Shown here: in pieces, positions 29,587 through 59,300 of the stretch
Layout of the letters: each line of letters opens with the position of its first letter
Position numbering within the stretch: position 1 is the stretch's first letter
From: Bryum argenteum
Lineage: Eukaryota; Streptophyta; Bryopsida; Bryales; Bryaceae
Assembly: GCA_037043015.1 (NCBI GenBank)
Contig: CM073321.1
Span: 18,349,001 to 18,413,000, forward strand
Reading direction: 5' to 3'
Length of the DNA stretch: 64,000 nucleotides
The notes under the pieces: generated by a model
What the model saw: only the letters and a program-made list of their open reading frames with translations
The model's database searches: none
Told to the model about the DNA's origin: nothing
Translations under genes and position numbers: made by a program

Positions 29587-30442
29587 AACCCCATATTTGT
29601 TATATTGGGAAATATGCAGGACTTTGGGAGATTTAAGAGTAGTGAATCATCTAAAATATTGTACAATGCTAAGCATAAAGTACTAGATGATATGCATCAA
29701 ACATGATATGAATATATGCAAATAGAGACATCGCTCTGAACAAACTATAGAAAAAGGATGTGGATAAAAGAATATTCCATTTATTTGCTTGTAAATATCA
29801 ATCATGATTCACAAAATATGTTATACAAGAGTGATGACTATCAAATCTGTACATAATTACTTCTATAGCTAATAGATGTAACTATTACGGAGTTCCACCA
29901 TAAGCGACGATACGGGATTGGATGAATGCTCGTTGACGCCGACGTGTCTAGCTAGAATCATTGTCTTGCATCAATGGACTATTAAGAAGGCGTTGCGAGT
30001 CTTTCGCGACGCCGGTCCTCAATACTTGACTTACGTAGCGAGTGGCGGCGGTTTTCCAGACAAAAGCTTAATTGCTCCCTGTTCCGTGGACTTCCAAGGA
30101 CATGGTTTTGGACTCTCTAAAACATGATCCTGAACAAAATAAAACAACGGCATTTCTTATAAGTGAACGAGCTAATAGATACATACGAGCAATAGGTAGC
30201 ATATGAGTCAAATGTCTAAGAATGTCCAGCGTATTAGAGTGTACAGCAATAGATCTACAAATAGTTATTCGTTCTTGCAAACACTTAACTCAAAGCATAA
30301 AATGGACACTCTGGAGTAACTTCGCAAGAGATGAAGAAACAAACCTTTACAAAAACTTCTTCAGAAATATTCACGTCAATGTCGTATAACATACGCTTCG
30401 TAGGCGTACATGTAATTTGAAGAGGAGAACCGTTATGATTTA
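29587..30442 (-). repeat. Terminal fragment of a second copy of the large composite element
   Basis: The whole segment is an inverted copy of 55,080-55,932 (856 versus 853 bp, roughly nine bases in ten identical by eye). It includes the terminal AACCCCATATTTGTTATATT (29,587) and a broken copy of the last exon (around 29,900-30,120, with a TAG and a one-base shift). Homology stops exactly at 30,442, and the left TIR of the large element begins at 30,443. This fragment is therefore the end of another copy, probably cut by insertion of the large element. Confidence 0.8.
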
Positions 30443-30462
30443 AACCCCATATTCGTTATATT
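30443..30462 (+). repeat. Left terminal inverted repeat of the large element
   Basis: Identical over 20 bp to the inverse of 55,913-55,932. A diverged third copy of the same end is at 29,587. The 30,463-30,881 stretch behind it, downstream of the DUF7869-like gene, shows nothing coding. Confidence 0.75.
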
Positions 30463-32532
30463 TGGAACATTTTTATCTCCCAAATTAAAACAAGACAACG
30501 GATGAAGCCAAAATCAACATTTAGAGGGGTTTCACCGTAGGCATATGTACTTTGAATTTACTAATTTCCATCATATTTGGAGATGATATGAGACCTCTTG
30601 AATCTTAGAAAATATGTTTATCTTAAAAAAAGTTTCTAACCATACATATGTTTGATACGATATATGACAAGATTAACATACCAACAAAAGATAATTTTCT
30701 TTCAATTGATAATAATCATGGAGTCAACTTAAACAATCTTTTTATACAAACAAAATATACTGAATATGGATAGTAAAACGTACAAATATATAATACTCTA
30801 TATACTAAATATCAAAGTAATGTTTATGTCAATACCAAGTTTAAGTACTAACACACCTACTTCCATAATAAAAACTATATACTAAGAGACTACTCTTGAG
30901 AAGATGAAGCAAACTCCCGTAAAGAAGCCCTTGATGATTTCGACCTGCTTCTTCGATATCGTAATAATTGCGTCTATACCTTCATTGCTTTCCTCGTCAG
31001 AAAGCGTAATTCTTGATTTCCAAGCAGTGAAAATAGCATCTGTTGGTTGCGAAGATACATCTACACCTTTCTCAACAGTCCAACGAAGCTTTCTATTTGT
31101 ATCCCAATCTGTGTAATACTTCAGAATTTCTTTGGAGCGTGACATTGGACGGAAGAACTGGATGTCGACCGTATTGGGTAGGTCTGGGTTTGAATTTGGA
31201 TCAGACATTGCTCGCTCGAGCCAGAAAGGCCGGCCATCGGTGCTGTATGGACGCAGTGCAACAAAATAACCCTTATAAAGGTCACGTCCAACTCGAAATG
31301 AAGGAGCAGGACGATCACGTCTCTGACCAACAAAATTATCATCGTCGTCGTACTCTTCGCGCATATTCCCTTCTGAAGGAAACTCATCTTCCATAGAATG
31401 TGCAAGTCGAGTTGACGGCCAGAATCCATGTTGTAAAGGTAATGGATCCTCCAAACTTGACGGAATCCCATTTTGCGACGATGCAAGTACATCCATGGGT
31501 ATACAAATAGCATCTTTTACGCCGCTCCAGTAATATGAGAGAGGCTCGTACAATCTCCGCGATTCAATTGACTCACGTGATAATCGTTCCCAATGATCGA
31601 CAAAGCCTGAAATCCCTTTCACCACCTCAGGCAAATGGCGCATCTCGTTTGTACGCATTGCATCCGGGTCACCACGTGGCCATAATGATCTGCCTTTCGA
31701 ATCCTCCTTCCAGAATTTAATACCAGCATGATCACCTCTAGGAAGCCATTTCTTGTCGTGACAGAAAATATTGTACTTCATTACGGGGCATCCACTTAGA
31801 TCCATGTAAAACTTGAATTGATGCGCTTTCGTATGCCCCACCAATGCTTCGTCGCCGAGTAACATCCACTCTTCAATGAATTTCTTGAAGTCCGGAACCT
31901 CTTGAACGAGGTGTGGAATAACTGGAAGTTTCTCAATCCTCATAAAAGATTTCATGACAAGAGGGATGGTAGAATAATCCTCCTTTTGCAACGACATGCT
32001 CCAATGCCCAAATAACGCATCTATGTCATCATGAGTGTGACTGACGAGCATAAAATTAACATATATCTCTCGGAATACTTGTTTTGCTACCAAAAGAGAC
32101 CAAAAACTGAAGATGAATCTATTCTTGTTATCACTCACAGCATTATCCATTTGGACATTCAAAATTGGAGGCAAAGGCTTTGCTAGAACTAGGATGTCAG
32201 AAATAGGGCCTAATGGATCCATACACACCTATGAACCTCGTAAAAGAGCAGTATACAATGGATGCGATGGGGGCTCTGTAAAGAGCTGTCTAGATGAGGA
32301 TTTAGGTGCAGCTTCTAGATCCCGCAGAAGTTTTGTAAACGAGCCAACCGTATAATTGGCATCATGTGAGTAAACATCTAATCCATAATGGGCGTATCGC
32401 TGGTCTACATGACCATGAGCAAGAATTCCCGTAACTGCAAGAGGTAACTTCATGAGTCCGTCTAAGTTCTTCAGCTTATGAGACAAGGAAGGTGATGCTG
32501 TTTTAGAGTGGTCCATCTTGTCATGCATAATG

Positions 32533-35500
32533 TGTCGGATGCCATGTATCCACTTTGTCTTCCCTTACACGTTTATTAGTGTAATACCCGTGTTTAGGTG
32601 ACTCGTGTATCGTTCCAGGGATTCTTTGAAGTGACTAAGATAAAGTAGTGCTAAAACACCCGACCACCAAACGTTTCTACTTCCAACTTATGTTTTAGCC
32701 TTGCATGGCAAGGGTATCCCTTTGCAAGAGGGGATGCACAAAGACTCTTTCCCTTATGTTTATCGTGGCGGAAACGTCTACACTTCGACTCTATTACACA
32801 AACACCCACTTAGGCACACATTACGTCCTCACAACTAATCTGTAATGGCCGGCCGAATTAGCAGGTCACGCAGCCCGTCCTGGTTGCCCTATCACCTTTA
32901 TTACAATGACAGATTCCAAGAGCTCTAAATTCGGCTAGAGGACGTCTACACGTATTCCGGTCACGTACTGTGCTTGATCCGTCTCCTGAGACTACAGAGG
33001 AACCGAAGTCCATAGCAGTTGGAGGTCGGATTGGAATCCGGCCTCGCACACTCTACTCCCAGACCCTCCCAGACCATAAGGTGTTTACCACAGCACTTTC
33101 CCTCTCTCAGACACCTACACCAGTTCAAGACACAAGACACTCAAGAATACGTTCAACTCGACCTCCACTTTACAGAAACGATGTAACAAAGAATCCGGAT
33201 TCCTAACTCCCAACTCACGACCCAGACACAGTAGATACGACTTCTAAGCACTTAACCTCGAAGGGAGACAAAGAAAGGATCACACCGAATATGCGCATAA
33301 GATGGTTTAGATCAACAGTAAGAAATGAATGTTTTAGGTGACAAAACCTTCACCTATAAGTACTTCTAAGTCAACGACTTAGAAAGCTAACTAGATTGCG
33401 GCGCCGACCCACACGGCCTACTCCTCAAAAAGCGGCTCGCATCCACAAAAAGATATTTCTAACTGTCCTAGGCCGGATTCCAATCCGGCTTCCTAACCCT
33501 CGCCGACTTCTAACTTCCGGCCTCAGAGTACGTCCTACGTCTTCTTCGTTGAGCTAACCCCGTGCTTCGGCCGTTCCAAGGGCGAGGCTGCGATCCGACC
33601 TGTCTTAACTCTCTTGCCCGTGTCCGTGATCATGTACTCGTCATCACTTGCGCTCTCTTCCGTGTCGTCTCCGCTCTTCAACTCTTCCTCCTCGGAGTGT
33701 TCGAGGCCGATATCATGAAGCTTCCGAGCGCTTGGGGACTTTTCGTACTACTCGGACGTAAGTTTCCTCTTCGCAATACGAGTGTTCTTGGCCGGAGAAT
33801 CTGCTTGGCCGGCTGCGCCTTCCTCCGTCTTTACCTTGCTTTTGCCTTTGGTGTCCGCCGGACTCGAGGGTCCAGTATCCGTCCTCTCGGCGTCAGCCGG
33901 GTTCTGCCTCGGGGTCTGTGCTGGAGTGGTTGCAAAGGCCGGAACCAATGCCATCTCGTTAATCCGCTCACGGACGGAGTCCTGCACCACCTTCACTTCA
34001 GCGTTGCTCTTCTCAATCTTGGTGGAGTACGTCTTTGCGGCCATGAGAAACTTCCGGAAAGTCTCCGCCTTGAAAACTTCAGACTGTAGGATTCCGGCCT
34101 CGTACAGGTTGGCCTTCTGAAGTACCTCGGCCGGAACCTCAGAGACTTCCACCAACTTAACAACCTGCTCGTGAGCGGTCTGAACGGCTTGTCGGCCGAT
34201 CACGAGCTCTTCCTCCCTTCGCCTGACCGTCTCCCTCAAGCGCCGATTATCCATCGTGAGCTTTGTGATCTGTCGCTCTTGCTGGTGGTACTCCTCTTTG
34301 GTCGGCTTGGAATCCCACTTCTGTTTCACATCAAGTAAAGTGTGCCCCCCAAACTCCTTACATAACCGAGCAATTAGTCTCTGGTAACGGAAGTACGTGG
34401 TTCGAGCCTCCGTGAAGTGGTACCACGCCCTCCTCATCGGATCCGAATGATTGGCGGACGGACTAGTGGATGGAGGAAGTTGGGGGTCATTGGGCTGCAT
34501 GGGATTCTCCCAATCGGCTGTAACCTCGTCATCTTACACGACCGTCGAAGCTTGGCCGCTTTTAGTCTGAACTCCGGCCAAGTTCGGCTTCTTTGGAGGG
34601 GGCGAAGACAGAAGTACGATTACCTCGGGTGCAGCTCGCGGCGGTGTCTCCTCGCGAGCCGGCTCCTGGAGCACATCCGGCTTTACGTCCTCCTCGTCGG
34701 ATCCGACCTCGTCCTCTTCGTCATCTGAGTAGACGGCCTTGCTGTCCGCGTCTTCCTTGGATTCAAACACGCCGTTGTTTTGAGAGGACAACGCAATCCC
34801 ATAGTTTGATTCCTCCTCCTCCGTCAGGACCTCCTCCTTTTTATACAAGTGGTAAAGGAAGAGAGTGATCGGGCTAGGTCGGGTCTTACCCACGTTCTCC
34901 GCGAGCCGGGCGACTAAGTCGCGGATGATGATGCCCTAGTCGACATCCCGCTCTCCTCGTACCGACCCCAGGACGGTTTTGGCAAGCTGGACGCTAATCC
35001 AATGCAGCTTGTCCGCGTGGATGATTGGCGCTAGGAATCTGATCACCGCGCGCTCCCTCGACTCCTTGCAGTCCTCCACTGCGTAGCCGTTGTTCTTGTG
35101 CGGCTTCCCGTGAACGGCCGTCTTCGCCCATTTGTGTTTACGGCCGCACAACCCCACCCCGCTGTTTCCGATCAGGCCGTAAACTGTCCTCCAATGAACG
35201 GTCGTCCAGGACGCCGACTTCCCTCTAACCGTCCCTTTGAACTGGTTTGGCGCGCCGGTCTTTATTTCGCGCACCATCGCCGCATCACGTAGTCCTCACG
35301 GGGTCTCAAGCAAGCCGGACAGGCCCATCCGATCTAGGTCCTCCGTCAGCATCGTCTACTCTTCTTCTTCGGCCGTAATGATAGGGAGTACCAGCTTGAT
35401 GGAAATCTTGTGCTCCTCCTGCGCCGGAGCGGAAGCGGAAGCCAATCATGCCATCGGGAAGAAAAGTGAAAGAAAGGAGCGAGTGGCCGGGCTGAGATCG

Positions 35501-35978
35501 GCCAGGGGGCCGGATCGGAAACTAAGGGACGGAAAGCGAAAAGACGGAAGGTAGGGGCGCAAGAAAGCGAGAAGGCAGGTAACGACAAGGGCGGACGGGT
35601 CGCGTTTTATAGGGAGAGTCGGATTCAAATTCGACCATCATGACTTGTCCGTCCGCCATCATTGCCGTCTCCGTACGGAGCCGTCTTTGGCACTGTTGGT
35701 CATTATTATCCTTCCAGCAACTCCGTCCTCCAGCCGCCGTCTTTAACCCCATTCCGGGTTCTGACAGTATGTCCTCGCCGTTTGAGTGCGGAGTACGGGT
35801 TCGCGAACCCGTCCTTTTTATTACAAACTACATTCTAAAGATAACACTTATTTGTAAAAACGCATTTGCCTTATAGTATACAGCCTATCACATACTTAGG
35901 TCGGATTCTTGACACTATTCTTATTCTTAATGCGCATTAAAACATATTGGCACACAATCGAAAAAACAGGGTCCGACA
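32533..35978 (-). mobile_element. Element A: nested gag-like element with TG...CA ends and 5-bp target duplication
   Basis: It begins TGTCGGATGCC (32,533) and ends GGGTCCGACA (35,978), with TAATG on both sides (32,528-32,532 and 35,979-35,983). The ends form a 7-bp inverted repeat TGTCGGA/TCCGACA. The insertion lies inside the DUF7869-like coding sequence, and its excision restores the frame exactly, which proves the borders. TG...CA termini and 5-bp duplications are hallmarks of retroviral-type integrases, yet I find no long terminal repeats: the first and last ~300 bp are unrelated. It carries a minus-strand gag-like gene (35,277-33,748) and about 1.2 kb of non-coding sequence after it (32,533-33,747). 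Confidence 0.85.
33748..35277 (-). pseudogene. Gag-like/coiled-coil protein of element A
   Basis: One reading frame with two internal stops (TAG at 34,936 and a stop at 34,534). The order is: a globular N-terminal domain (W..VYG motif near the start, then GYAVEDCKESRERAVIRFLAP, ~35,200-35,000), FLYHLYKKEE, an acidic linker (DDEEDEVGSDEEDVKPD), Pro-rich sequence (SSPPPKKP), and a long coiled coil (KLTMDNRRLRETVRRREEEL to SVRERINEMAL, ~34,290-33,950). The C-terminus is basic. The same architecture recurs in elements B, D and, truncated, E. The N-terminal domain vaguely recalls the 'putative plant transposon protein' domain of plant retroelements. That resemblance is from memory and untested. 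I see no zinc knuckle, protease, reverse transcriptase or integrase. Confidence 0.6.
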
Positions 35979-37309
35979 TAATGGTCAAAACATCTTGAGG
36001 CGACTCCTTAGACCTAAAGCGGTTGAGGTAGTATAAGTCACTGTGCACATATGCGGAATCTAAGTGCACATTTAACTTCCTCGACCATATAAGAGATGAT
36101 TGTGTCCCAGGAAGAGTGAGCTTCATCAATGATTGTAACTCATTATACTTAGAGCAACGCGCGAAATTGTCCCCCGATCTTTTGCCATAGTATTTTGGAT
36201 AGCTGAGGCGGCGAATCTTACTAAGGTTTGAAGTTGACACCGGCGGGAGCCCACACTCTTCAAGGTGATGATCAAGAAGAGGAATTTGGTCCTTCCACTT
36301 AAAACTTAAAGGAAGTACCTTAGCAACAACCTTCTCCCCCGATGGAAGGCTCCGGGACTTGTGAGGCATGTGATTGGCATGTCTATCAAGTATTGCCCCT
36401 AAGACGGCAAAAGCAACAACGGTATGACTCCTAGGCTTTGGCAAGCCCGTGTTCTCGTGTAACTGAGCCTCATGCCCATCACCTGCTCTCTGGGCGTTGC
36501 GATAAAACGTACCGTTGCTCACGCCCATGATTTTCATCGACTTAATTGGACAAACATCGATACCTTCTAGAGTGACTATATTTCGCCTTTCAGCATTTCT
36601 GTGGAACTGCCTATGGACATCGAGTTTGATGTGATTCTTCAACTGCACAGTTGTCTTGTCGTAAATGCGACACGTGAGAACCTTAATCTTCTCCCTTGGA
36701 TATAGTTGAACACAGTTGTGCCTACAGCAGGTATTACGTGCGACCGTGTTGATTGACTCCTCTGTCATCAGAAACTGTGCTTTGCACGAAACTGGAGTAG
36801 ACTCATTCCTTAAAGAATTGTCATACGATCGAGTTTGAGATGACCCCTGCCGCCGACTACGTTCCCGGACCCATCTGTTGTAAACATCTTGCTGACTATG
36901 GTCAAAGAGACTAACACTGTCTAGGAGGACTTGTTGGATGGACCATAACTTGAAAGAGTATATCCAGCCGTCAGGATCCTCGACCGCAACAAACAAAGTT
37001 GAAACTTGCACCACAACTCGGGAATCACCGAGTAAGCCATTACAATCAGCTACAGCGCCAGATTGTAGGTTTCGAAGTAAACCCTCAGCGATTTTGAGTC
37101 CTTCGGAATCAAGCATTGCAACAGTCACTCCTGTCCAGAGCCGTGGAGGAACAACTTGAGCAGCAAGTAAATCAGGATTTATAGGTGCATCAATGAAAGT
37201 GTTATCATCTGAAGAGAAATACATCCTGCAATATATCTTCAGAAGGTTAATTACTATTTGAACAAAAACATGGTCACAACTTCAGGACAGTATGAGAAAC
37301 GAACACATG

Positions 37310-37842
37310 CAGTTTAGCTCGAGTCGAGCTAAACTGACTAAGATAATACATTCTACAGTTTAGCTCGACTCGAGCTAATCTGCATTATGTAGTCGATCAA
37401 TCAGTTTAGCTTGACTCGAGCTAAATTGTCTAACCTACACTGCGTTGCAATTTAGTTCGAATTGAGCTAAACTGCTGAAATATGCTTGCCATACAGTTTA
37501 GCTCGAGTCGAGCTAAACTGCTGAAATATGCTTGCCATACAGTTTAGCTCGACTTGAGTTAAACTGCAGACATATCCATGTCATACAGTTTCGCTCGACT
37601 CGAGCTACACTGTCCGACCAAATGCATACAGCAGTTTAGCTCGACTCGAGCTAAAGTGTATGGCATGGATATGTCTGCAGTTTAACTCGAGTCGAGCTAA
37701 ACTGTATGGTAAGCATATTTCAGCAGTTTAGCTCGACTCTAGCTAAACTGTATGGCGAGCATATTTCAGCAATTTAGCTCGAGTCGAGCTAAACTGCAGT
37801 ATGCATTAGGTCAGACAGTTTAGCTCGAGTTGAGATAAACTG
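37310..37842. repeat. 12-unit palindrome array with exact 46-bp period
   Basis: Twelve 27-bp near-palindromes start at 37310, 37356, 37402, 37448, 37494, 37540, 37586, 37632, 37678, 37724, 37770 and 37816. All eleven steps are exactly 46 bp, so every spacer is 19 bp. The consensus is the arm CAGTTTAGCTCGA, one central C or G, and the arm's reverse complement. Spacers 4 and 5 are identical. Spacers 8, 9 and 10 are close reverse complements of spacers 6, 5 and 4, so the array as a whole is mirrored about ~37,622. It lies in the first intron/leader of the DUF7869-like gene, just upstream of the acceptor at 37,227. It resembles a CRISPR array only in layout. Confidence 0.95.
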
Positions 37843-38385
37843 CATAACAAGAGACAAGACTAGTCCCGAAAATTCCGGCGTAATTCACAGGATTCAAATA
37901 GAATTCGAAATTTAGTTACAACCAGCGCTCTTCCATTCTATCATCAGACACAGGAATCAACATCTACTCCTGTACCAACGAAATCGTCATATCAAAAAAA
38001 GATGTCAACAACAACTGCTCCGAATGCATAGAGGTTATCTACAAGCCATTAGAATACAACCATTGAATAGAAATTATCAACTACTACTACTCAAGATAAG
38101 GAGAAAACTATGAAGAATAATGAAACAGACAATGCGAGAAGCTACGCAAAGAAAATTTGAGGACAAAAAATCATGCATAGATGGAATCAGAAACACGTAC
38201 GCGAAGGCAGCGGGCGAGCTGTAGGAAGCGCGGAGAACTCAAATACGTCGACGGAGTTCACCACCCCCAGAGATTGAGAAGAAAAGAATCATTCTGCCCT
38301 GGATTTCCAGGGTCATTGCGTAGCGCAAAACCGTTTTTGCGCTTTCCCAAGAATAGAAAATGAGAGGGAAATGACGTTTGGATAA
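37843..38385 (-). other. Leader region of the DUF7869-like gene (no clear coding exon)
   Basis: This lies between the palindrome array and the presumed promoter. The block 38,160-38,340 is G/C-richer and could be a 5' leader exon of the minus-strand gene, with the array in the following intron. No conserved protein is visible on either strand. Confidence 0.35.
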
Positions 38386-38528
38386 TTGAAAATTGGCGGG
38401 AATTGAAGTCTCGTCAGATGAAAATGGGTGCGAACGGAAGTGTCAACAGTTAATAATGGGCGGGAACAAAAGTCCCGACATTTAAAATTTGGCGGGATTG
38501 AGGTTATAGGGTTTAGGGTTTAGGGTTT
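38386..38528 (-). promoter_or_regulatory. Candidate promoter of the DUF7869-like gene: tandem E2F-like sites plus telo-boxes
   Basis: About four imperfect ~32-bp units lie at 38,386-38,503. Three hold a GGCGGGA core (TTGGCGGGAA at ~38,393, GGGCGGGAAC at ~38,458, TTGGCGGGAT at ~38,490), close to the plant E2F consensus read in either direction. Directly beyond, at 38,506-38,528, is TAGGGTTTAGGGTTTAGGG, i.e. AAACCCTA telo-boxes on the minus strand. E2F sites with telo-boxes are known from plant S-phase gene promoters. No TATA box was located, and promoter function is inferred. Confidence 0.45.
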
Positions 38529-43824: not shown

Positions 43825-44780
43825 CAGTTTAGCTCAAGTCGAGCTAAACTGTACTAGTTACGTAGGAGTAACACACAATTTAGCTCAAGTCGAGCTAAAC
43901 TGTTATCCGAATTAATAACACAATCCTAAAATATAATAGCAGTTTAGCTCGACTCGAGCTAAAGTGTCAAAGTTACTTTGGGTGACAACTACAGTTTAGC
44001 TCGACTCGAGCTAAATTGCTGCAAAATACAGTAGCAACATTCTACAACACAGGAGCAGTTTAGCTCGACTCGAGCTAAACTGTGAAACCTACGGTAGGTG
44101 AGAGCTGCAGTTTAGCTCGACTCGAGCTAAACTGCTGCGCAAACTGATAGCAAATAAGAAGAAAATAACACCAGTTTAGCTCGACTCGAGCTAAACTGTT
44201 TAAATTACGTTAGGCTAAACTGTTTGATATACATTAGGCTAATCTGTTGCGTAAATGCCTAAAACTACACTAGTCTAAACTGTTGCATGAACGGCAAACA
44301 ACCTTGTCAAAAAAAGATAAAGTTTAGCTCGAACTGCTGCACTGTCACGTACGAACTAAAAACTGCCCTGAAAAAACAAAGTCGCCTACATAGAAGCGGC
44401 TACAAACGTCTCTATAGTTTAGCTCAAGTCGAGCTAAACTGTAGTTGAGACATGTCTCTACAGTTTAGCTCGACTGGAGCTAAACTGTAGTTGACACATG
44501 CCTCTACAGTTTAGCTCGACTCGAGCTAAACTGTAGAGGTGACGCTAGTTGTGACATACATTTCAGTCTAAACTGCTGCCCAAGCTAACAACGAATTTCT
44601 AATTACGACGCCGTTCAAGGTTGAGGGTTTAGGCTATTCTGAAATGACGTCAAATCTTAAGAAGAGATAGCCTTGTAGCTTGTAGCGTGCAGTTTAGCTC
44701 GAGTCGAGCTAAACTGTAAATCCCACTTAGATTGCTCAATAACCCCTAGGCTGCAGTTTAGCTCGAGTCGAGCTAAACTG
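43825..44780. repeat. Palindrome cluster 2 (12 copies; steps of 46, 51/52 and 64 bp)
   Basis: The same 27-bp palindrome as the 46-bp array starts at 43825, 43876, 43940, 43992, 44056, 44108 and 44172 (steps 51, 64, 52, 64, 52, 64). It starts again at 44415, 44461 and 44507 (steps 46, 46), and at 44690 and 44754 (step 64). Eroded half-sites (TTAGGCTAAACTG-like) fill 44,199-44,340. It lies immediately upstream of the first recognisable exon of the ParB-like gene (about 44,913), presumably in its leader or first intron. Confidence 0.9.
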
Positions 44781-46357
44781 CAAGTAGTACTAGGAAGTAT
44801 AAATTAAGCTTCATGTATATCCAAACCGTTATTATCAACTACCACAACCTTTACCTTCACAGTTAGGAGAAGGCAGGAGTTCAGGAGGCGCTGTAGCACT
44901 TCTTCAAACTTAGGCCGTTGGACATTGACGAAGACAATGGCGACAACATGAAGCACTTAGATTGCTGGAAATTGAAGGACCCATTGAAATTAGTATTGTG
45001 GTCAGCGAGATGGATTCCATTCACAGCATTCCTTAGCCTTGTCGTGACCTACGAAGGAGATGTAGAAGACCCCATGTGCGTTGACATAGACTCAAAGCTC
45101 ACTGACCTCGACCACGAATTAGAGAAGGAAGTCATAGCTACATTAACAACCTTCAAGGAGATGGACAAGGAGCAAGCTCACAACTACACCATACTGATCG
45201 ATATCAAGCAGACTCGTTTTGACTTGGGGCAGTTAGTGCAGAGCTTAGAGGCGTCCAATTTTGATGAAATAAAAACCACATTGAAACATGATATGCTTAC
45301 TAAAGCATGGCAAACCAAACAGGTGGGAAAGCTCAAGGCCAAGCAGCTAGCGATCAAACTGCGATCTGTAGTCTCGCATCTGACACACGCTGACATTATG
45401 GCGAAGACTCTCTACTTCAAAGGAAAAGCTCCACTGGAGGGATCAGGGCTGACTGCAACGGGTAGCGGCGTACAGCGCAGGACTCCATCACGCCTGCAAC
45501 GGGCTACAAGGCCTGCCCCTACAATCACCACAACTTCTAACTCGCTTGTAAAGAGGAGAGAAGCTCCCCTGAAGAAGTCGGCCGAGGCGAAAAGGAAGAA
45601 GAGCATGCTCATCCCCAAAGAAGATGCTTTAACGGCTTTGAACGATGCAATTCAATACATTCCAAAGAACGTTGATACCGTGGAGGAAATCGACTTTGAA
45701 AACGTAAACCTCATCTATAAGAAGTTCTTCACAGACTCTCAGGATTCTTTTGTCTTTCCTAAACCTGACACAAAGATGGAGATCGACACAATGAAGATGT
45801 TTGAGTCCTCTCCCCAATGGACAATCCGGGCATTCAAAAAGAAGGGCAAGACGGACTTGATGAATTTTCTCATCAATATGCCCGACAGATCGCAGAAGCG
45901 AACGCTCTGCGTAATGCCGAAGTAAGAGGTGAAGCCGAACGGCCTGGAGGATATGCATGACTGCGACTTCTGGATTATTAACGGCCAACAGAGTGTTGCC
46001 GCCTGAAAGCAGATGCTTGAGTCCAAAGTCCCAAAAACAATTCCTTAGGACTTCCGGGTGTGGTCGGCTTTCGTAGTTTGGACAAAGGATGAAGCCAAGC
46101 TCTGCAAGATATCGGCGTTTTACAACAGAGTGAACCATTTCACTCCATTTAAGCCGACATGGGCATCGAACATCCTTGCCGCCCGTATGGTGTGGCGGAA
46201 CTACGAGCACCCCCCAAACAGACATGCAGCAGCTCGGGTGGCGGACAAACGGGTCCAAGCAAAGCGAATTGTGTCACAATACGCTAATTCTGGCGTAAGT
46301 ATTATCTCAAGTCGCATCGCAACTCTACCTTTTTTAAATGTGAATAATTTCCCGTGG

Positions 46358-46588
46358 CAGTTTAGCTCGAGTCAAGCTAAACTGATGTTAGTTTAGCTTG
46401 ACTCGAGCTAAATTGTCACTGCACTTTCATCTAGTTCTGCATTTTAATCTTAACTGCTTCTTACCATGTAGCGCGCTCTTTAGCTCGACTCGATCTAAAC
46501 TGTCGCCACTACTTCATGAACCCCAACACTTATAAACAACTGCTTCTAAATTTTGGATGCACACGTTAGCTTGACTCGAGCTAAAGTG
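46358..46588. repeat. Palindrome cluster 3, four eroded copies in an intron
   Basis: Copies lie at 46,358-46,384, 46,389-46,415, about 46,475-46,501 and about 46,562-46,588. All sit in the intron between GGCGTAAG (~46,296) and CACATAG (~46,665). Arms carry one to three mismatches. Confidence 0.8.
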
Positions 46589-48002
46589 ACCACTCTCTTA
46601 TACTCTAAAATCTTACACTCTACATGTGTGGCATTGTAGAAATTTGTTGACTCTATTCCACATAGGTTTGCCATGATTGATGTTGCCAAGGCCCAAGTAG
46701 AGGTGAAGAACAAGGTCTTGTCCCTCACGAATGAGCTGAAGGTCATCACCTTCCCTAATGATCTCTGGGACCTATGGGCAAAGTTGACTGGAAGTGTCGC
46801 TCAGGGGACCCTTATCGACCCCTACTCCTTGAGGCAGTTGTGTGACAAGCCAGGGTTCAAACCAGACAACGACCAAACCCTGTCAAGGGAATTTTTTAAG
46901 AACCTCGGTAACCTTTTAGAGTCGGACCATAGGAAACTCTGTACACATATGCTCAATAAGTCATGTCCGTTGCGGAAACTGGAATACCCGAAGGTTACCC
47001 TCAAACAACCAGCAACCCTTCTTGAAGATTGCTACTCCGTCAGGGAGTACATTGAACGGCTGAAGCGGAAGGCGACCGCCCAGCTTCAGATCCACAAGAT
47101 CTGACCCACACTCGGAATCTTCAAGAACAACGAGTTCGACGTGGATGCGTGGAAGAAGTTCAAGATAGACTACCACGTCACGAAGGCCTCGAAGCGTGCA
47201 CTTTTGTAATGGGGTATTCCTGATAAGTACTAGGCGGATCAAATGCAAACCCAGCACATGAATACCAGCTGCGAGGATCTCTCTCCCTACGCAAAGAGGT
47301 TCTTTGAGGTGTTTCTAGAAAAGCGCGAGAAGTTTATAGGCCCTGTTGGTAGTTTAATTTTCCGATCCTTCCACCACAAAACGCCACAGTGGCTTGGAGA
47401 TTGGCCTGGGAACTCATGGCCGGAAGTTGCACCTGAGATGAACATCGGAATCATCAACTTCAGATTAGTGTCGGGTAGTGGTGGTACCTCCGATTCCTCG
47501 CGTGACCACCCATTCTTCAAAATGTTCATGACCATCTTATCGTCCCAGAACAAGCCAGCTCTCACAGATGTACCCTGCTGGTTATTTATTTGCGGGGATG
47601 ACAGTGATTACGCGCAAGTTGAGGAGTTTGCGACAAATCCTGCATACTTCCCAAGGTCGAATTATAAGCTGATTCCATTGTTGTACTATCCATCTCCGCA
47701 CGAATGGATTGCTGGATTCAATGCAAAAGCAAAGCAAGCTTCGGAGCCTGTGCGTCTTCTCTTCATGATTAGGGCAAACGTGAAACTCGCGGGATTGCCA
47801 GAGAACGAGTATCGCGATCCAAAGCACGCGCTTTACGAGAAGCCGCGGAAGTACAACGAGTCTCGGTATCACATGTACCCGATCGAGTTGAGGATGGATT
47901 TTTATTTGTAGATCATCCAGCTTTTTTGCCAGGAGCAGGAGAATGTTTTTCATGTCTACACCGGCGGGAAAGCAGTCTGCGCAAGCATGGTAAGCTTCCC
48001 TA

Positions 48003-48176
48003 CAGTTCAGCTCGAGTCCAGCTAAAGTGTCGTACTCTATTTGCGCGCATAGAATCCCTACAGTTTAGCTCGACTCGAGCTAACTGTCATATAGTTTAGC
48101 TCGAGTCGAGCTAAACTGTCATACCCATATGGACCTTACAGTTCTGTTATGGATTAGCTCGAGTCAAGCTAAACTG
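48003..48176. repeat. Palindrome cluster 4, four copies in an intron
   Basis: Copies lie at 48,003-48,029, 48,061-48,086 (one base short), 48,092-48,118 (perfect arms) and about 48,149-48,176. They fall within the intron 47,989-48,253 of the ParB/methylase-like gene. Confidence 0.85.
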
Positions 48177-49204: not shown

Positions 49205-49231
49205 CAGTTTAGCTCGACTCGAGCTAAACTG
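49205..49231. repeat. Single palindrome copy, perfect arms
   Basis: 27 bp with a central C, between the end of the Pro-rich exon (49,112) and the acceptor at ~49,327 of the phosphatase-like gene. If palindromes are confined to introns, this suggests that the two coding regions may belong to one transcript. Confidence 0.9.
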
Positions 49232-50401
49232 TTGCCCTTTGTCCTATGTGCTTCTTGTTGGCTCCCATATTTCTATTTCCGCCATCCTATTGTTTCCTGA
49301 TTCCATGAATTTGTATTGCGCTGCCAGATGTAAATTTGGATGACGAAGCAATCAATGTTCGAGTCATGGATGATGTCACGCTTGAATGTTATCGCCATGA
49401 GCAGGTTCCATTGGTGGAGGAAACACTTAAAATCGCTGATGTCTCACATCCAGAGAATGTTCTTGCTGTCCGTGATGAGATAAATTGCACTCAGCAGTCA
49501 CTTGAGTCAATGGGTGTCCAAGTTGACTTAGAGGAGAGCAATTATGATAATAAGGTATATTCAAATCCACACACTCTGCTCTCACCCATGGCCTCGTTGG
49601 CATGTATTACATAATTCTGACCTTGAATTCACTGAATCAATGACGATAAATCCCCAGTAATTTTGTCGTGGTGCGTCGTTTTCTATCCAAGTCAACGACG
49701 CATCGGTCAATGATTTAATTTCTAGAGAAGGCATAAGTCGGGTTCCAAGGAAATCCTCCGGTACTTGGTTAAACGTTGTTCTTGACCTCAATGGTATCCT
49801 CTGCAATTGTACCCCATTTTGGGAAGCTAAAGGATACAGAAACCGTGACTTCCGTATTCACTCGGCCACGTTGCCAACCGAAGTGGGGAAGAAGCTTGTA
49901 TGGGTGAGGCCCAACTGTAAGGACTTCTTCTCTCAGGTGGCATCGTTTGCTACCATCACGGTTCGGAGTTTGATGATGAGAACAACCACAGAAGCCATTT
50001 GTGATTTTCTCTTTGGTCCTATAAACTCTATAAGGCCCCTACGAATTCTTGGTGAAGAAGACTGTGACATGATTCCCTTGGAACCTGGTGGGAGCTGACC
50101 TTTGTGCATGAAGGAACTGGGAACTCAGAAGTCTATCTTCCTTAAGACCTTGTCAGCTCATCTCTTCAATAGCTTTGATGGTTTTTATACAGAGGCTAAT
50201 ACGCTCATCATAGATGATAATCCGGTGAAGCACGTGCAAAATCAGCGTTAAAATGTTCTTTTACTACCATCTTGGTCTCACAAGGACAATAGGGCACACG
50301 AGGATTCTATTTTGTTAGATGAGGTTTTGCCGTATCTCTTAGAGCTTCATGAGTTTGACGGTTCCCTTAGCAAGTTTCGGGCATCGTATCAATTTGGACG
50401 T

Positions 50402-53400
50402 TGTCGTAACGTGTTTTCTCGATTTTCGCCCGGATAACCCTTTTATGTAGTAAAAGGGGTTTCCTAGACCAAACCCGAGTATTCGTCCACGGAGATCCTG
50501 TGAAGTGCAAGGACAACAAATTCCACCAGTCACCCAACCCGGATTTGCACTATCCGGGTATTTTTTAATCGCCCACGTGTTCTGTATCCTATCCTGGAAC
50601 GGGAGGACGGGGGGTTTATGGTTTAATTTAACCTCTGTATTCACCTAAGAGGGGTTTTCCCGGACTTAATTAAGTGGTGGGATTGGGCCACTCTTTCCGT
50701 TGATTATTGTGACCGGAAAGGTCACCGGATTCTTTCTCTCCGTACCTTGGTTAGGTACTTCCCTTACACCGCCCTCTACGCTCGAGACCCTAGATCAGCA
50801 CGTATGTCACTAAGGAGGTATCCGGTTCTCCTATTATCCGGTTATCACGACTCACTATCCGGGATAGTAGATCCCAGGTTACCGAAAGGGGGTGGTACTA
50901 CTGACCTGGAGTTCACCGCTGGCACCTACCGACAGCCTGCCTACCCGAACTCAGCGATCCAGGGGGACTCAACCGAGGGTTTTCTCGGGAGTCGGTTTAG
51001 TAACATGAATCCCTTCCTGGTTATTGTAATCCCGGACACTGAAGGGACAGGCCGGACTATACCCTAAGTGCGAGGTGCCGTTCGCCGGCCGCACTCCTCC
51101 CCTATCAGCTTTTCTTCCTACTTTACTTATCTCCGTTCATGGACGGAACCGCTCTCTCTTGCGCGGACAGCAAGGGTCTTTTGAACTTCGCAAAATCTCC
51201 AATCCAGCATGCAAGACAGGAAACAGGGAAGATTACCCACACACACACACAAGGGGGATGGGAGGAAGAAGCGTACTTGCGGCTGAATTAGGGTATTGTG
51301 AAAGGCACAAAAAGACCCCGAGGAAGTCTCCTCCCCTCGGCTAAGTAGCAGAAACTCCCTGGGCATCTCCAGAAGAGGACAAAATCCCGCGCTAGGAAAT
51401 CTTTCTAAATCTAACCCTGTCAGTGGTGCGCCGCTATTCTCCTACCCACATTAATACCACTAAGTCTAACCAACCTCGGTCAGAGGTATCCGCTAATAAC
51501 TACCTCGGTCTCGATCATCCCTCTTCTGCTTTGTGGACCGCACAACCTCGGGAGTCGCGGAAGTGCTGTCTACCCGCGCTTTTAGCTCGGACCGGGAGGT
51601 GATCTCCTCCTTCTCTCCCGTCTTGCCAGCTGTCGGAAAAGAGCCTCCGCCATTTACAATCTCCGTATCCACTGAAGGAGCGGCAGCTGAGGTATCCGGT
51701 AATACCTCCCCAGTTTCCGAGACATCCACCAGCTCTTCGGGAACGAGGGGGATGGTCTCCGAGGTGTGGGTTACCTCGGGGGAAGCCTCGTGGTCAGGAG
51801 ATCCTGACAAGGAGAATACCTCCCGCCCTTGGAGTGGTTGGAGTACCCCTCATCCCTGTCCGGGTTGTTGGGCAGCGGCCTTTACTTTTTCCCCTGGTTG
51901 GATAGTGGCCTCTGGAACGGAAGCAAGGCTCTCGTCCATGGAGTCCACAATCCGGTCCGGTGGGACGTCCGAGCCCGAGCTTCTACCGCTCTCCGGGAAT
52001 CCTCTCCTTCTTTAGGGAGTACGCCTCCCCTGGTCGCCTCCGCGCTCTCCTTATTCTCCTCGTGGAGGGAGGGTAGGGCCTCTGGTCCTGTTGAGACCTT
52101 CTCTGGACTTTGGACTGTTGGCTGAGCTGGCTCCTCCATTGCCACCGGGTCGGCGGATTCCTCCTCCTCGGCAAGGACAGCTACAGTTGTCTCGGGGATG
52201 GCCTGGGTAGGAGGGTTCCCGACTATCTCAAGTGGGGGTGTCTCCCCTGGAAGGCCCCGGACATCACCCCAATGAGGAGCCTCATCTTCTGGAGAGCCCC
52301 TTCTATCCGCTCCGTGGCCTTCTTCATGTAAGCGGCCATCAAAATTGGAAGATCCGACCCGGATGCCTGGAACAGGGCGTCAAAAAGCTGAGCCTTGAGC
52401 TGGGCCTCTCCGGGTGCGTACAGAAACTTTCTGAGCCCGAAAAGGTGCTGCCGAGCATACCCTTGCTATTTGGACAGCTCCTCCTCCAACTGCTTCTTCT
52501 CCCTCTCCTGTCGTAGGATGATGAGGGATCCTTCATTGACGCTAGTTCGGGCCTCTACAGCATCCCGGAAAAACTCCCGAATCATGTCCGGGTACCGCTC
52601 GATCTGGTTGGTCCGGAGTGCTACTGCTATCTTCCGCAGTGCCTTGTACATTTGAAGGTGCTCCTGCGTACATAACTGTAAGGCATGGGCGATGGGCTGC
52701 AGAGGATCGTCCTCCGTAATCCGGAATGGAGGCACGGAGAGGCTCGGATCATACTCTGGCCTCCTCAGGGTGAAGTCATCCCATCCTGGTAACCGGGCTG
52801 CGGCGGATGGAGCTGCGATCCCCTGTACCGAGGTAGTGTGGATGGGGGAGTGGTTGCCGGTCTCACCCTCGTCCTCTGACTCCGAGTCATCCTCCATTAC
52901 CTTCTTCCCCTTCCTCCTGGTGGCCCCCTCCCCAGACGATGTGGTCCACTGTACCGCCGGAATTGTCCTGGCAGCCGGCTCAAGGGGTCCGGCCCGAGCA
53001 ACAGGGGAAGCCGCAGGGGTTGGTGAAGTGTCCTCCCTGGGCTTGGTGAGTTTTCTCCGGACTCGGGGTCGAGGACTTTCGGAGGGGAGGTCCGCCTTCT
53101 TCTTCTTTGTGTATTTCGGTTCCCCCCACTCCATTCCTCCCGCAGCTGTGGGTTGTCCGGGAACTTCGATCGGACTATCTGCCAAATGAAGGACTTCAAT
53201 GGGGATTTCCCCAATCTGCACCTCCCTTGTCGGGGTCTGCACTTCCCCGGTAGGGTCAGCTGGTTGTGGGGCTCTCTTGGCCTCGGTATCTCTTGGCTGC
53301 AGCTCGGCCCCTACCTCCTGTTCTCCTGGAAGGGGGGAGGAGTCAGTGCCCCCGAATCGGAGGACTCGTCCTGACTTCCTCCGGCGTAGGACAAGGAGCT

Positions 53401-54541
53401 CCTCTCTGTCACTGTCATTCCCCTGTACAGGCTGCAGGGGTGGTGGGGAGGCAATTACGGGAGCTGGAGGAGTCGCCATGGCTACCGGCGAGACTTCCCC
53501 TACTCCGGGCAAAGTCGGACCTTGATGGCTGGGCCCGGGTGCAGCTACCCTCCGGGTTGCCATCCTGTGGGTGGTGGCTGGCCGGGGTGGAATGCCTCTC
53601 TCCGCCATTGGTATGGCTGCTCCCCCAGCATCGGGTCCTGGTGCTCCTCCATCTCCAGGCCCGGGCGCACCTGGTCCTGTCCTCCCAGGTCCCTGCGATC
53701 CTGGCGGTGCTGGTGGTGGAGGTGGAGGGAGTGCCCCTACTTCGGGGGCAGGCACCCTGGGGAGGAGCCTGGCAGCAGCGGGGACTCCTACCTCGGGGAT
53801 CTCTTCCCCGGGAAACATGTCTCTCCTTCCCTCCATGAGCATCCGGAGAAGCGTTATCTCCCCCGGGTTGAGGCACTCGTAGTGCGCGTACAGGTGGTAC
53901 ATGAATTGCGCCAGGGGACAACCCTTCGCACTGGTGGTCTTCTTCGAAGCCCGGATGATCACCTCCTTGAGGATGTATCCCCGTCCCACTCGCTTCCGGC
54001 CCAGGTAGGACTCCATGATCGCCTTCAGGAGCCTGTTCGAGACGAACTGGGGCTTCTCCGGGCTGAGGATCGGGGCCAGGAACCTGAGCAAACGCCGCTC
54101 TTGAGCATTCACGCAATCCTCCACTCGGTACCCATCGTGCTCGTGCGCTGGGTTGTGGAACATCCCACCGAGGGAGGGATCATTCCGCACTTGTATGTAC
54201 CCGGTGGAGGAATCCGGGAAGCCGTAAGTCGCCCTCCAACACGCCTCCTGCCAAAAATGCGGCTTGGCCCGGACAGGGTTGTCTGTAGCTACCGGACTGG
54301 CACGTAGAGCTGAACCCGGACTTGGTAGCAACCTTAAACAAAAATTTAAAAAAATTTGCTATTCTTTACTCTGTCTACTAAGCCTAAGGCCATTCCCGGG
54401 TAAGCTGGCCCTCAGTTGGACTATTCCTATCCCTTCATTACCCGGGTACGCCGTTATAAGGGCTTTTTTTTCGTCAATCATGCTATTAATAACCATTTCC
54501 CGGATCCAATTGGGGCCAAAGAGAAAAATTAGGTTTTGACA
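50402..54541 (-). mobile_element. Element B: nested gag-like element
   Basis: It begins TGTCGTAACGTG (50,402) and ends GGTTTTGACA (54,541). The flanks are GACGT on the left and GACGC on the right, a 5-bp target duplication with one C/T change. Excision restores the phosphatase-like frame (CAA TTT GGA CGC GCC ATG). It is 4,140 bp. It carries a minus-strand gag-like gene (54,331-52,466, continuing as broken coiled coil to ~51,493) and about 1.0-1.1 kb of non-coding sequence at its 3' side (50,402-51,490). No long terminal repeats were found. The minus-strand start TGTCAAAACCTAATTTTTC resembles that of A (TGTCGGACCCTGTTTTTTC). Confidence 0.8.
51493..54331 (-). pseudogene. Gag-like/Pro-rich/coiled-coil protein of element B
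   Basis: The longest open frame is 54,331-52,466, 621 codons from a TTG; the frame is probably entered by splicing behind TTTGTTTAAG. Residues ~25-170 form the N-terminal domain shared with A and D: WRATYGFPDSSTGYI, then DGYRVEDCVNAQERRLLRFLAP, then FMYHLYAHYECL. A ~330-residue low-complexity region rich in Pro, Gly, Ala and Glu follows. Its high G/C is unlike the neighbourhood. A coiled coil (LRKIAVALRTNQIERYPDM to RQEREKKQLEEELSK) ends at TAG 52,466. The coiled-coil homology to A (for example LLMAAYMKKATERIEGALQKM-type sequence) continues past that stop to about 52,270, and Ser/Glu-rich sequence follows to 51,493. It lacks protease, RT and integrase, so it is a structural protein at most. 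Antisense frames across 51.5-54.3 kb are shadows of its G/C richness. Confidence 0.6.
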
Positions 54542-54853: not shown

Positions 54854-55636
54854 ATTACGCAGGGTGATTGTCGTGCTTCTTTGGATTCTTTGATGAATGC
54901 TGCGGATTTCGAGCCTTCGCTTCGGAGTAGAGGACGATTATTGCAGTCTGCTGAAACGGCTCAATCTACCATGGATTTTTCGACAATGGCGGTAGAAGAT
55001 GGAGTAGTTAATAGCCCTGTCACTAAGTCATCACCTCCGAAAGTGATGCAATCCGCTTCCCCACTGTCGCCTCCTACAGTAAATCATAATGGTTCTCCTC
55101 TTCAAATTACATGTACACCTACGAAGCGTATGTTGTACGACATTGACGTGAATATTTCTGATGATGTTTTTGTAAAGGTTTGTTTCTTCATCCCTTGAGA
55201 AGTTACTCCAGTGTGTCCATTTTATGCTTTGAGTTAAGTGTTTGCAAGAACGAATAACTATTTTTAGATCTACTGCTGTACACTCTAATACGTTAGACAA
55301 TTTTTAGACATCGGACTCATATCCTACCTATTGCTCGTATGTATCTATTAGCTCGTTCACTTATAAGAAATGTCGTTGTTTTATTTTGTTCAGGATCGTG
55401 TTTTGGAGAGTCCAAAACCATGTCCTTCGAAGTCCACGGAACAAGGAGCAATCAAGCCTTCGTCAGAAAACCGCTGCCACTCGCTACGTAAGTCAAGTAT
55501 TGAGGACCGGCGTCGCGAAAGACTGCAACGCCTTCTTAATAGTCCATTGATGCAAGACAGTGATTCTAGCTGGACACGTCGGCGTCAACGAGCATTCATT
55601 CAATCTCGTATTGTCGCTTATGGTAGAACTCCGTAG
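54854..55636 (+). pseudogene. Two terminal exons of an element-encoded protein of unknown function
   Basis: Exon 54,854-55,177 (acceptor AAATAG, donor AAGGTTTG) joins in phase to exon 55,394-55,636 (acceptor TTGTTCAG) and ends at TAG. The first exon is Ser/Thr/Pro-rich (for example SAETAQSTMDFSTMAVEDG). The second is strongly basic (SSIEDRRRERLQRLLNSP, RRRQRAFIQSRIVAYG), suggesting a nuclear or nucleic-acid-binding C-terminus. A broken inverted copy lies in 29,587-30,442. These exons may be the 3' end of the phosphatase-like transcript or a separate gene. I do not recognise a domain. Both exons are open here, but upstream exons are broken, hence the pseudogene label. Confidence 0.45.
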
Positions 55637-55912
55637 TAGTTACATCTATTAGCTATAGAAGTAATTATGTACAGATTTGATAGTCATCACTCTTGTATAA
55701 CATATTTTGTGAATCATGATTGATATTTACAAGCAAATAAACGGAATATTCTTTTATTCCCATCCTTTTTCTATGGTTTGTTCACAGCGATGTCTCTATT
55801 TGCATATATTCATATCATGTTTGATGCATGATCTAGTACTTTATGCTTAACATTGTACAATATTTTAGATGATTCACTACTCTTAAATCTCCCAAAGTCC
55901 TGCATATTTCTC

Positions 55913-55932
55913 AATATAACGAATATGGGGTT
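55913..55932 (-). repeat. Right terminal inverted repeat of the large element
   Basis: Inverse of 30,443-30,462, 20 of 20 bases. The next bases outside (ACAAGTTGGC) do not repeat the left flank. Confidence 0.75.
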
Positions 55933-56369: not shown

Positions 56370-59300
56370 TTGTGTTTTGGTTCCTTACAGACAATGGAAC
56401 AAGAGGAACTCCATAACTTAAAGCATCTACAATTATGGCAAGAGGAAGAGATTCAAGCGGATACCTTGCGATTAACAAAATACCCATGTCCATGCACAGA
56501 ATGTGCAGGAGGGAAAGTTCTTGATCGAGCCACAATTTGGAAGCATCTTAGTAGTCGAAAAAGGGACCCTATAATACAGCGTTGATCTTGGTAAGTGATT
56601 GCAACCAACGACTCCTTCTAAATTAAATTGATGTGGATCTATGTACAGTTTTAGACTTTAAAAGTTTGTGTACCCAAATTATGTAGACTTGGTGGCGACC
56701 CATTGTCAGATCAACATGTTTAAAATCACTGACAACATTCTTAAGTCAAAAAGAGCCCCCCGATCACGCCATATCCACGCCTACATCCGCAAGAGTGAGT
56801 CGTTTGTAGAATTGGCATTCAGATGTGTATGATGGACAATGGTGTGACGGACCCATTCCAAAGCTAACAGGATTCTCATATTGGAAAAGGGATTGGGAAG
56901 TGAAAGTGTCCAAATTTGGCTTCATGGGTTAGGGTCTGTTTGCAATGCAACCTGCCAAAGAGGGTGAGGAACTGCTTCCTTTTGTACGACCAAAATACAC
57001 CTCCGCGGAATACAAAACATTGAGCAAGGCACACCCTCAAATAAAGTCGTACGTGATGCGTGCGGAGTTAGACTTGTACATTGACGGAGATGTACTGAAA
57101 GGGAATGTAGCTGGATTCATCAATAGTTCCATTGGGCGTAGGGAGATAGAAAATGTTGTGTGGGAGTTTTGCATGTTCCCTAAACCGTGGAACACTTTGG
57201 AATGGGGATATGTGATTACCATAGCAACAAGGGACATCTGGGCAGGAGAAGAACTCTAAGCACATTACTCAATACAACAAGGCAGCATTGGCAAACGAGT
57301 AAATGTAATGAAAGACTAGTTGAGGCTTGAACGGCAGAATTACAATCGTTGCATGTCCATGACTAGTATATTACTCATAGTATAACTAGTATATTAGTCG
57401 ATTTTTCTTCAAGATGACTACAAGCAGTCACTATTCCCTATTGTAATGCCATTATCCTTCTCATCATGACGGAGTTGATGTTGTCTTCGTTGAAGCTTCA
57501 CATTGTCCGGAGGATGGCTTCTTAGTGAGTGGCAACGAAGGTAGCGATGACGATGCACAGAAAAACAACGACCATATGGAATTAAGAGGGACAACCACGA
57601 ACATCATTGACGCTAGCGGTATTGCCGTGGACGCCCTATTACGCAAAGCAAAGACTCCACTTTATGTCGGGAGCTCTTCCAACCGTCTGACCACCACGGT
57701 CATGCTACTTGTTTGTTGCAGCACATTTGGTGTGCCAAACAATTTTGTGGACGAGTTGTTGAAGTTATTGCAGGAGACAATATTGCCCAAAGGCAACACA
57801 TTACCAAATACATTTTACGCGGCAAAGTGTTTGTTAATGAAGTTGGGATTGTCCTACGACTCTATACATGCATATAGAGATGGGTGTTGTTTATTTCGGA
57901 AAGATTCGGAGGATGCAATAGAGTGCCCAGTTTGCCACAAATCCCGGTATGCTGACTACTCTAAAAGAATACCTGTCAAAGTATTGAGACACTTTCCATT
58001 GGTTCCTTGTTTGCGAAGAATGTACAGTTGTTCGCGGTTGGCGAAGCTCATGAAGTGGCACACATGTAGAAAATGCAAGGACAAGGTGATGAGATCCGTG
58101 GTTGACTCAAAGGTATGGAACCACGTGAATAATAGATGGCCGGAGTTTGCAAACGAAGAACGGATTGTTAGGCTAGGCTTGTCACTAGACCATGTGAACC
58201 CGTTTCAAAACCAAAGCCTTAGCCACTCAACATGGCCTGTCGTCATGCTAAACTACAATCTTCCCCCTTGGCTAGTGACCGAATACTTCTTTCTGATGCT
58301 CACGTTACTTACACCCGGAAAAGAAAGTGTGACAGGTAAAAACGTGGATGTATACCTAGCACCATTAAATGAGGAGCTACAAGAGCTATGGGAAGGGACC
58401 GATTGCGTAGATGGATCACAACAAAAAACCGGTGACAATATATTCAAGCTTTGAGGTATGTTATTGTGGACGGTGAACGACTTTCCGGCATATGAACTGG
58501 TTTCTGGCTAAGTCACAAAAGGACATAAGGCATGTCCCGTGTGTGGACCCAACATAGTAACGCGGCGCTCAAAAGCGCTCAAGAAGAATGTCTACCTTGG
58601 CCACAGACAATATTTGCCAATGGAGCACCAATGGAGGCGAGAAAGGGTCAATTTTAATGGCCAACCGAATATGAGACCTCCTCCACGAAGGATGAGCGGT
58701 TGAGAGCACTTGCAATTTGCAAATGAGCAACAACAATGGACGGCAAACAACTCTGCAAATGAAAGAGGACAGACCCCAGACCCAATACATGAACACGGAG
58801 TGAAGGGAAGGACATGTCTCTTTCACCTTCGGTACTAGAAAGTACGTGTATCTAACGCAGTGTTGTAGTGTGACATGACTGTACGTAGTGATTTTATGGG
58901 TAGCATGTCTATATGCAGTGATATGATGAGGAATGTGACTATATATAATGATAATGAACTATATGGAATCTAATTTGTGACTGGGTGGAGCCAGTGTACA
59001 GGATCTTCTGATTCGACACACGTAGGATGTCATGCACTGTGAAAAAAACATTGCCAAGAATATCATGAAGACCATATTTGGAGAGAAAGATACACTTGCA
59101 GCCCGCCTTGATATGAAGGAAGCGCGGATACACAAACATCTTCGGCTTGTACGCGGTAAAAAACACGGCAGCGTTACGTTACTTCGTTCATCATACGTTC
59201 TTACAAAAGAAGAGCGACAAGTCTTTGTAGACCAAGTTTGTTCCTTGCTAACCCCTACTCAATACGTCGGACAGGTAAAGAAGGACGTCAGCATGGACGG

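Follow-up and report, generated by a model that had tools for sequence, protein, structure and literature searches.

What a strictly periodic row of palindromes might be doing in a plant genome is the question raised by a 64,000-nucleotide stretch of DNA from Bryum argenteum (GenBank assembly GCA_037043015.1, contig CM073321.1, positions 18,349,001 to 18,413,000), referred to here as the window. An initial annotation had described twelve 27-bp palindromes at a 46-bp period, and a mismatch scan bears this out: the sites begin at positions 37310, 37356, 37402, 37448, 37494, 37540, 37586, 37632, 37678, 37724, 37770 and 37816, all 11 start-to-start steps measure exactly 46 bp, and the array (array A) ends at 37842. 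Individual sites deviate from the palindrome at zero to three positions, two of the twelve being perfect, and the two arms of one site are mismatched at zero to three positions. The host element appears to be a giant (~18 kb) Sola1-like DNA transposon. We propose, with somewhat better than even confidence, that the palindromes are double-stranded DNA operators at which this transposon's own ParB/methylase-fold protein acts to keep the element genes expressed or unsilenced. As to the ligand, a role as sites for the element-encoded ParB-like protein is the most likely one.

The palindrome is abundant. Searching the 258.8-Mb genome (25 contigs) returned 5,032 matches with up to three mismatches, compared with none for the reversed pattern, which excludes a chance origin. 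It is also linked to the transposon, since 92 of the 100 palindromes listed were tied to the element. The initial annotation was thus right to place the array in a mobile element, and the array is not the generic satellite, unlinked to any element, that it had named as a refutation. A satellite or an assembly artefact was likewise rejected in view of the 5,032 genomic places, where those checked were tied to one element, and the recurrence of the palindrome in another assembly.

When up to eight mismatches were permitted, the window yielded 33 palindromes between 37310 and 49231, with 0–4 mismatches seen. They occupy non-coding parts of the element, namely the leader regions of two divergent genes as well as the regions between and behind the exons of the second gene, and none falls into a recognised coding exon. 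Array A (37310..37842) lies between the coding start of the transposase gene and a donor-like GTACGTG (38194..38200, minus strand), whose GTACGT is conserved in 11 of the 12 close relatives (it is changed in L023; eight sister copies were not alignable). Flanked in this manner, it probably sits in the leader intron of the transposase gene. The 21 remaining sites comprise array B (43825..44780), with twelve sites at steps of 46–64 bp and two bigger gaps, immediately upstream of the ParB-like exon; two groups of four sites with 1–4 mismatches, one separating exons 1 and 2 of the second gene (46358..46588) and the other immediately past exon 2 (48003..48176); and a lone perfect palindrome farther along the second-gene region (49205..49231). 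Hence, the second gene and its immediate upstream region together hold 21 of the 33 sites.

This gene is encoded opposite the transposase. Its exon 1 (44891..46303, plus strand) and exon 2 (46640..47985, plus strand) are predicted, from the modelled folds of the homologues P0001 and P0074, respectively, to specify a ParB-like domain followed by a DNA amino-methyltransferase-like domain, the latter being decayed in the window and lacking the motif [NDS]PP[FYWH]. In the models, the first domain has the ParB/Srx fold of the nucleotide-binding domain and the second the beta-class DNA amino-methyltransferase fold. Among the 90 ParB-exon matches listed, a transposase part within ~20–22 kb was divergently oriented in 56 cases, on the same strand in two and convergent in one. 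A homologue of the second gene (exon 2, P0108) also exists in Physcomitrium patens, which, like the plant-type telomere tracts of the genome, points to a bryophyte host. Pfam and NCBIfam gave nothing convincing for the second protein (DGQHR, 0.0085, 1/35; DUF6551, 0.063, 3/35), with unrelated names of similar strength (Spectrin_2, 0.0034, and yxeA, 0.0042; 3/35 each), and a sequence search of the PDB produced no relevant match. The methyltransferase domain is predicted to have CcrM among its nearest structural matches, and the centre of the palindrome reads GANTC, which is the CcrM site. Beta-class DNA amino-methyltransferases carry the catalytic motif [NDS]PP[FYW]; it was found in none of 45 homologues, some of them partial, even with histidine allowed as the fourth residue. 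The idea that the GANTC centre is a methylation target is weakened by this absence.

The palindrome recurs together with the protein. Proteins predicted in other assemblies read through the ParB exon into the palindrome, spelling FSSxRAKL or SLARxELN. Tails of this kind occur in 24 of 73 ParB-exon homologues when up to two changes are allowed, although the weakest, such as that of P0038, may be due to chance. With at most one change, and with both exons pooled, the palindrome is spelled in 23 of 118 homologues and its reversed version in none; the ParB-exon homologues meeting this threshold are 46–70% identical to P0001. A scan of prokaryote assemblies returned a single contig (L048), filed under the cyanobacterium assembly AVDCRST_MAG81, which encodes a transposase with 57–61% identity and carries three palindromes (1, 0 and 2 mismatches) immediately upstream; it is probably a plant contaminant. 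Plasmid records contained no match to the palindrome, and viral contigs contained neither a match to the palindrome pattern nor relatives of exon 1 or exon 2 of the second gene. Relatives of ParB bind palindromic sites. Together with the placement of 21 of 33 sites at its gene and the joint recurrence of sites and protein, this makes the ParB-fold protein the leading candidate for the ligand.

Comparison of element copies reveals which features of the arrays are maintained. All 20 copies chosen from the list of transposase matches have an array upstream of this gene, and 14 of them show a second group of sites within the 10 kb fetched. The copies form a close subfamily (the window and 12 loci) and a sister subfamily (eight loci). 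In profiles of 233 close-subfamily sites (up to five mismatches) and 283 sister sites (seven of the eight loci, L031 being omitted; up to six mismatches), information falls steeply at the edges of the palindrome and, completely so in the sister subfamily, at the centre base, with AGTTTAGCTCGANTCGAGCTAAACT as the core common to both. In aligned arrays of the two subfamilies, the palindrome arms diverged by 6.0% and 5.8% and the spacers by 25.0% and 20.7%, so that spacers change three to four times faster (first two arrays per copy only; blocks of fewer than 15 columns or less than 60% identity were dropped). The arms change about as slowly as the transposase codons, whose divergence amounts to 7.3% and 5.3% within the subfamilies and 26.7% between them (L031 and the window omitted).

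The spacing, by contrast, is not conserved, contrary to one of the two readings that the initial annotation had offered. Among 188 steps of up to 120 bp in the close subfamily, 107 measure 46 bp and 31 measure 45 bp, with steps of 52 and 64 bp also occurring; in the sister subfamily (288 steps), steps of 59, 55, 100 and 46 bp are the commonest, and 47, 57 and 97 bp are found as well. Since the steps vary between copies and subfamilies, the exact 46-bp spacing is a by-product of duplication and no rule of the family. The steps of the two subfamilies share no common phase, which led us to reject helical phasing; of the proposed ladder of symmetric protein sites about 4.4 helical turns apart, the symmetric candidate sites are supported and the helical spacing is not. 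Array A itself forms a large inverted repeat (37446–37612 versus 37632–37798, 167 nt, 92% complementary), and its units have therefore been duplicated and inverted. A short telomere-like TTTAGGG tract lies at position 38510 of the window and is also present in 19 of the 20 copies fetched (L014–L033, with the exception of L031), ~650–670 bp past array A in the close-subfamily copies worked out and 1.3–1.5 kb past it in three sister copies.

A DNA word that is long, symmetric and conserved, and that is dispersed over non-coding stretches of two transposon genes, fits an operator for a dimeric protein. In the mechanism that we envisage, the ParB/methylase-fold protein would bind the palindrome as a dimer, with one subunit per arm and the free centre base on the dyad. 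As sites flank both promoters, the bound protein could mark and coat the element's own non-coding DNA, and this coating may keep the element genes expressed or unsilenced, as VANC does from the motif arrays of VANDAL elements. By analogy, binding would be likely to protect the element from silencing or to control the two genes. Repeat-driven recombination would make the arrays grow, shrink and invert, which would explain both their regular local spacing and its variation between copies.

Several observations weigh against this proposal. Eight of the 100 palindromes listed sit far from any listed element part, and some divergent homologues end in FSSTRADY or QLDSS, as if, to judge from these protein tails, the outer letters were altered and the core kept. 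The best E-value for ParB is 1.7e-3, none reaching 1e-3 or below, and no helix-turn-helix domain suited to reading the palindrome was identified. While the nucleotide motif of bacterial ParB is GERR, 40 of the 50 homologues with this region matched (73 searched) have NGQHS in its place and the other ten have near variants, so that CTP switching of the protein would be hypothetical. The second gene of the window is broken, with one TGA, two TAG and one TAA codon in exon 1, and the window sites between and behind its exons (1–4 mismatches) are less well preserved than the arrays. In the conservation analysis, the mismatch cut-off used for picking sites lowers the measured arm variation somewhat, and poorly aligned blocks were removed before arms and spacers were counted. 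Finally, two-sided changes of the arms are somewhat commoner than expected under independence (53 versus 37).

Among known systems, the subterminal repeats of En/Spm are sites for TNPA and lie near the element ends; the element described here has in common with them a short site, repeated many times, for a (putative) element-encoded accessory protein, whereas its sites are internal. Bacterial parS is a 16-bp palindrome, and the likeness to ParB–parS consists in the predicted ParB fold and the palindromic site; here, however, the site spans 25–27 bp with a free centre, occurs dozens of times per element and is paired with an altered nucleotide motif, and no ParA partner was noticed, although no search was aimed at ParA. 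VANC and the VANDAL elements of Arabidopsis offer a transposon-borne short motif in tandem arrays within introns, intergenic and other non-coding parts, with fast divergence of the arrays (PMC5735166, PMC10398659). The VANC motif differs in being 8–9 nt long and is not described as palindromic, the string 'palindrom' not occurring in the main text of one of these accounts (PMC5735166). Moreover, VANC is a different protein, and the motif reported here is long and constant while the arrays change. A close counterpart is Sola1-1_Ec32 of Ectocarpus, likewise a giant element (21.5 kb versus ~18 kb here), in which a gene for ParB-like and DNA methyltransferase domains is encoded opposite the transposase; its authors suggested that proteins of this kind might bind the element encoding them and modify it (PMC12477816). 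In contrast to the present case, the parts of that account available to us describe no binding site, and an N4mC or 6mA output is predicted there (PMC12477816), whereas the catalytic motif is absent from 45 of 45 homologues here.

The kind of element is thus known, while the lineage is, as far as can be told, new, the enzyme altered and the cis-site newly seen. Algae are reported to harbour transposons with ParB and methyltransferase genes; for the proposal that their proteins act on the element itself, the literature accessible to us described no target site. In the openly accessible literature, we found neither an account of a cis-site for such transposons nor a published description of this kind of array, in agreement with the initial annotation. 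The present palindrome is a candidate for such a site, being specific, abundant and also conserved, and it comes paired with its putative protein in Bryum argenteum, which makes the idea of self-binding directly testable. If true, it would possibly be a second, unrelated case of sequence-specific anti-silencing beside VANC and a rare use of a ParB-type DNA-binding fold in eukaryotes.

A more far-reaching version, which we put forward only tentatively, is that the transposon adopted a bacterial-type ParB/parS system, in which the ParB-fold protein would load at dozens of palindromes and spread over 18 kb, with the apparently dead methyltransferase domain serving as a DNA reader (cf. the GANTC centre) that helps site choice and shields the element from silencing. 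It is unlikely that the transposase, and not the ParB-like protein, is what binds the palindromes, using them as internal sites or enhancers in transposition or in its own regulation. Other transposases do have internal binding sites, and the array upstream of the transposase gene is present in 20 of 20 picked copies and in another assembly. A transposase must act at the element ends, though, and none of the 33 window sites lies within 5 kb of either terminal inverted repeat (TIR; on the left, the distance is ~3.4 kb without a nested insertion), while 21 of them are located inside the second gene or immediately upstream of it.

Still less probable is that the sites are recognised by a transcription or chromatin factor of the host, which the element either exploits or is harmed by. 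The sites are close to both promoters, and the telomere-repeat tract, a known type of plant promoter element, is likewise shared by 19 of the 20 copies fetched. Yet a host factor should have other targets, whereas 92 of 100 listed sites are element-tied, and, with 24 fixed bases, the symmetric site would be a long target for a single host factor. We give very little credence to the sites acting as RNA, with rows of hairpins, located in leaders or introns, that influence splicing or RNA decay or feed small-RNA pathways. Most of them seemingly lie in introns or leaders and hence would be transcribed, and the excess of two-sided arm changes points in the same direction. Among 214 distinct sites, however, the changes are mainly one-sided (405 versus 53 two-sided); only 29 of the 53 are complementary double changes, 19 of them in the two outermost pairs; and the arm sequence itself is fixed, whereas hairpins require pairing and not the same sequence in each species. 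The hairpin reading of the initial annotation therefore finds little support. Least probable of all is the neutral case of functionless tandem repeats which gene conversion homogenises and the transposon transports, since, although the arrays expand, invert and shift their period and window sites outside them are less well preserved, homogenisation affects whole units, yet the spacers outpace the arms in divergence, and one core is shared by subfamilies whose spacers differ and turns up in other assemblies.

The assignment of the host element rests on its ends and its transposase. The left TIR, AACCCCATATTCGTTATATT (30443..30462, plus strand), recurs in seven of seven other copies fetched, and the right TIR lies at 55913..55932 (minus strand). 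For these copies, the left end was predicted by means of the DUF7869 match and the right one taken from a ~854-bp segment (41 matches), both being fetched for seven copies; in all seven, both ends read (AA)CCCCATATTCGTTATATT with at most two changes and a perfect 4-bp target site duplication (TSD) was seen by eye. By coordinates, six of the seven are 17.7–18.8 kb long and one 29.1 kb. Sola elements produce 4-bp TSDs, and those of Ginger are equally long. The table of a review has an entry 'Physcomitrella Sola1'. The window copy ends at 30443 and 55932; its flanks have no matching TSD and an additional inverted copy of the right-end segment adjoins its left end (29587..30442, plus strand), so that this copy is rearranged. 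TIRs of 860 bp, as the inverted arms 29587–30442 and 55080–55932 would suggest, were rejected, as the copies show an inverted right-end duplicate beside an ordinary 20-bp TIR.

The transposase is split into a 5' part (35977..37281, minus strand) and a 3' part (30882..32532, minus strand), which are joined in one open reading frame (ORF) of ~970–1036 amino acids in copies with a long open frame and are interrupted here by a nested insertion of 3.4 kb (32533..35976) with ~7 bp common to both breakpoints. Its only Pfam match is DUF7869 (E 2.1e-33; ORF 30882–32228). The minus-strand ORF adjoining array A (35896–37281) has at least 92 genomic copies, and the DUF7869 ORF has 95 matches, located 286 bp behind an ORF of the former type in the pairs checked by coordinates. 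Among the matches listed, 71 of 92 for the transposase and 66 of 90 for the ParB exon fall on contig C1 (44.1 of 258.8 Mb), a proportion well above the 17% of the genome that it makes up; C1 is possibly a sex chromosome or some other chromosome of low recombination.

Three ORFs of the window, 34936–35295 (minus), 52466–54358 (minus) and 60827–61825 (plus), apparently have a common unnamed domain (W[RQ][AT]xY and following, by eye) with no convincing Pfam match, and probably represent accessory proteins of nested elements. Within the element, 49661–50098 (plus) encodes a NIF/CTD-phosphatase-like piece (E 1.1e-5), possibly captured or derived from a nested insert. Outside it, the window contains pieces of a CACTA-type transposase (57447–59667, plus; Transposase_21 and DUF4218), a DDE_1 (PF03184) transposase (2634–3479, minus) and an RRM-domain exon (7690–8136, minus) that is perhaps a captured piece or part of a host gene.
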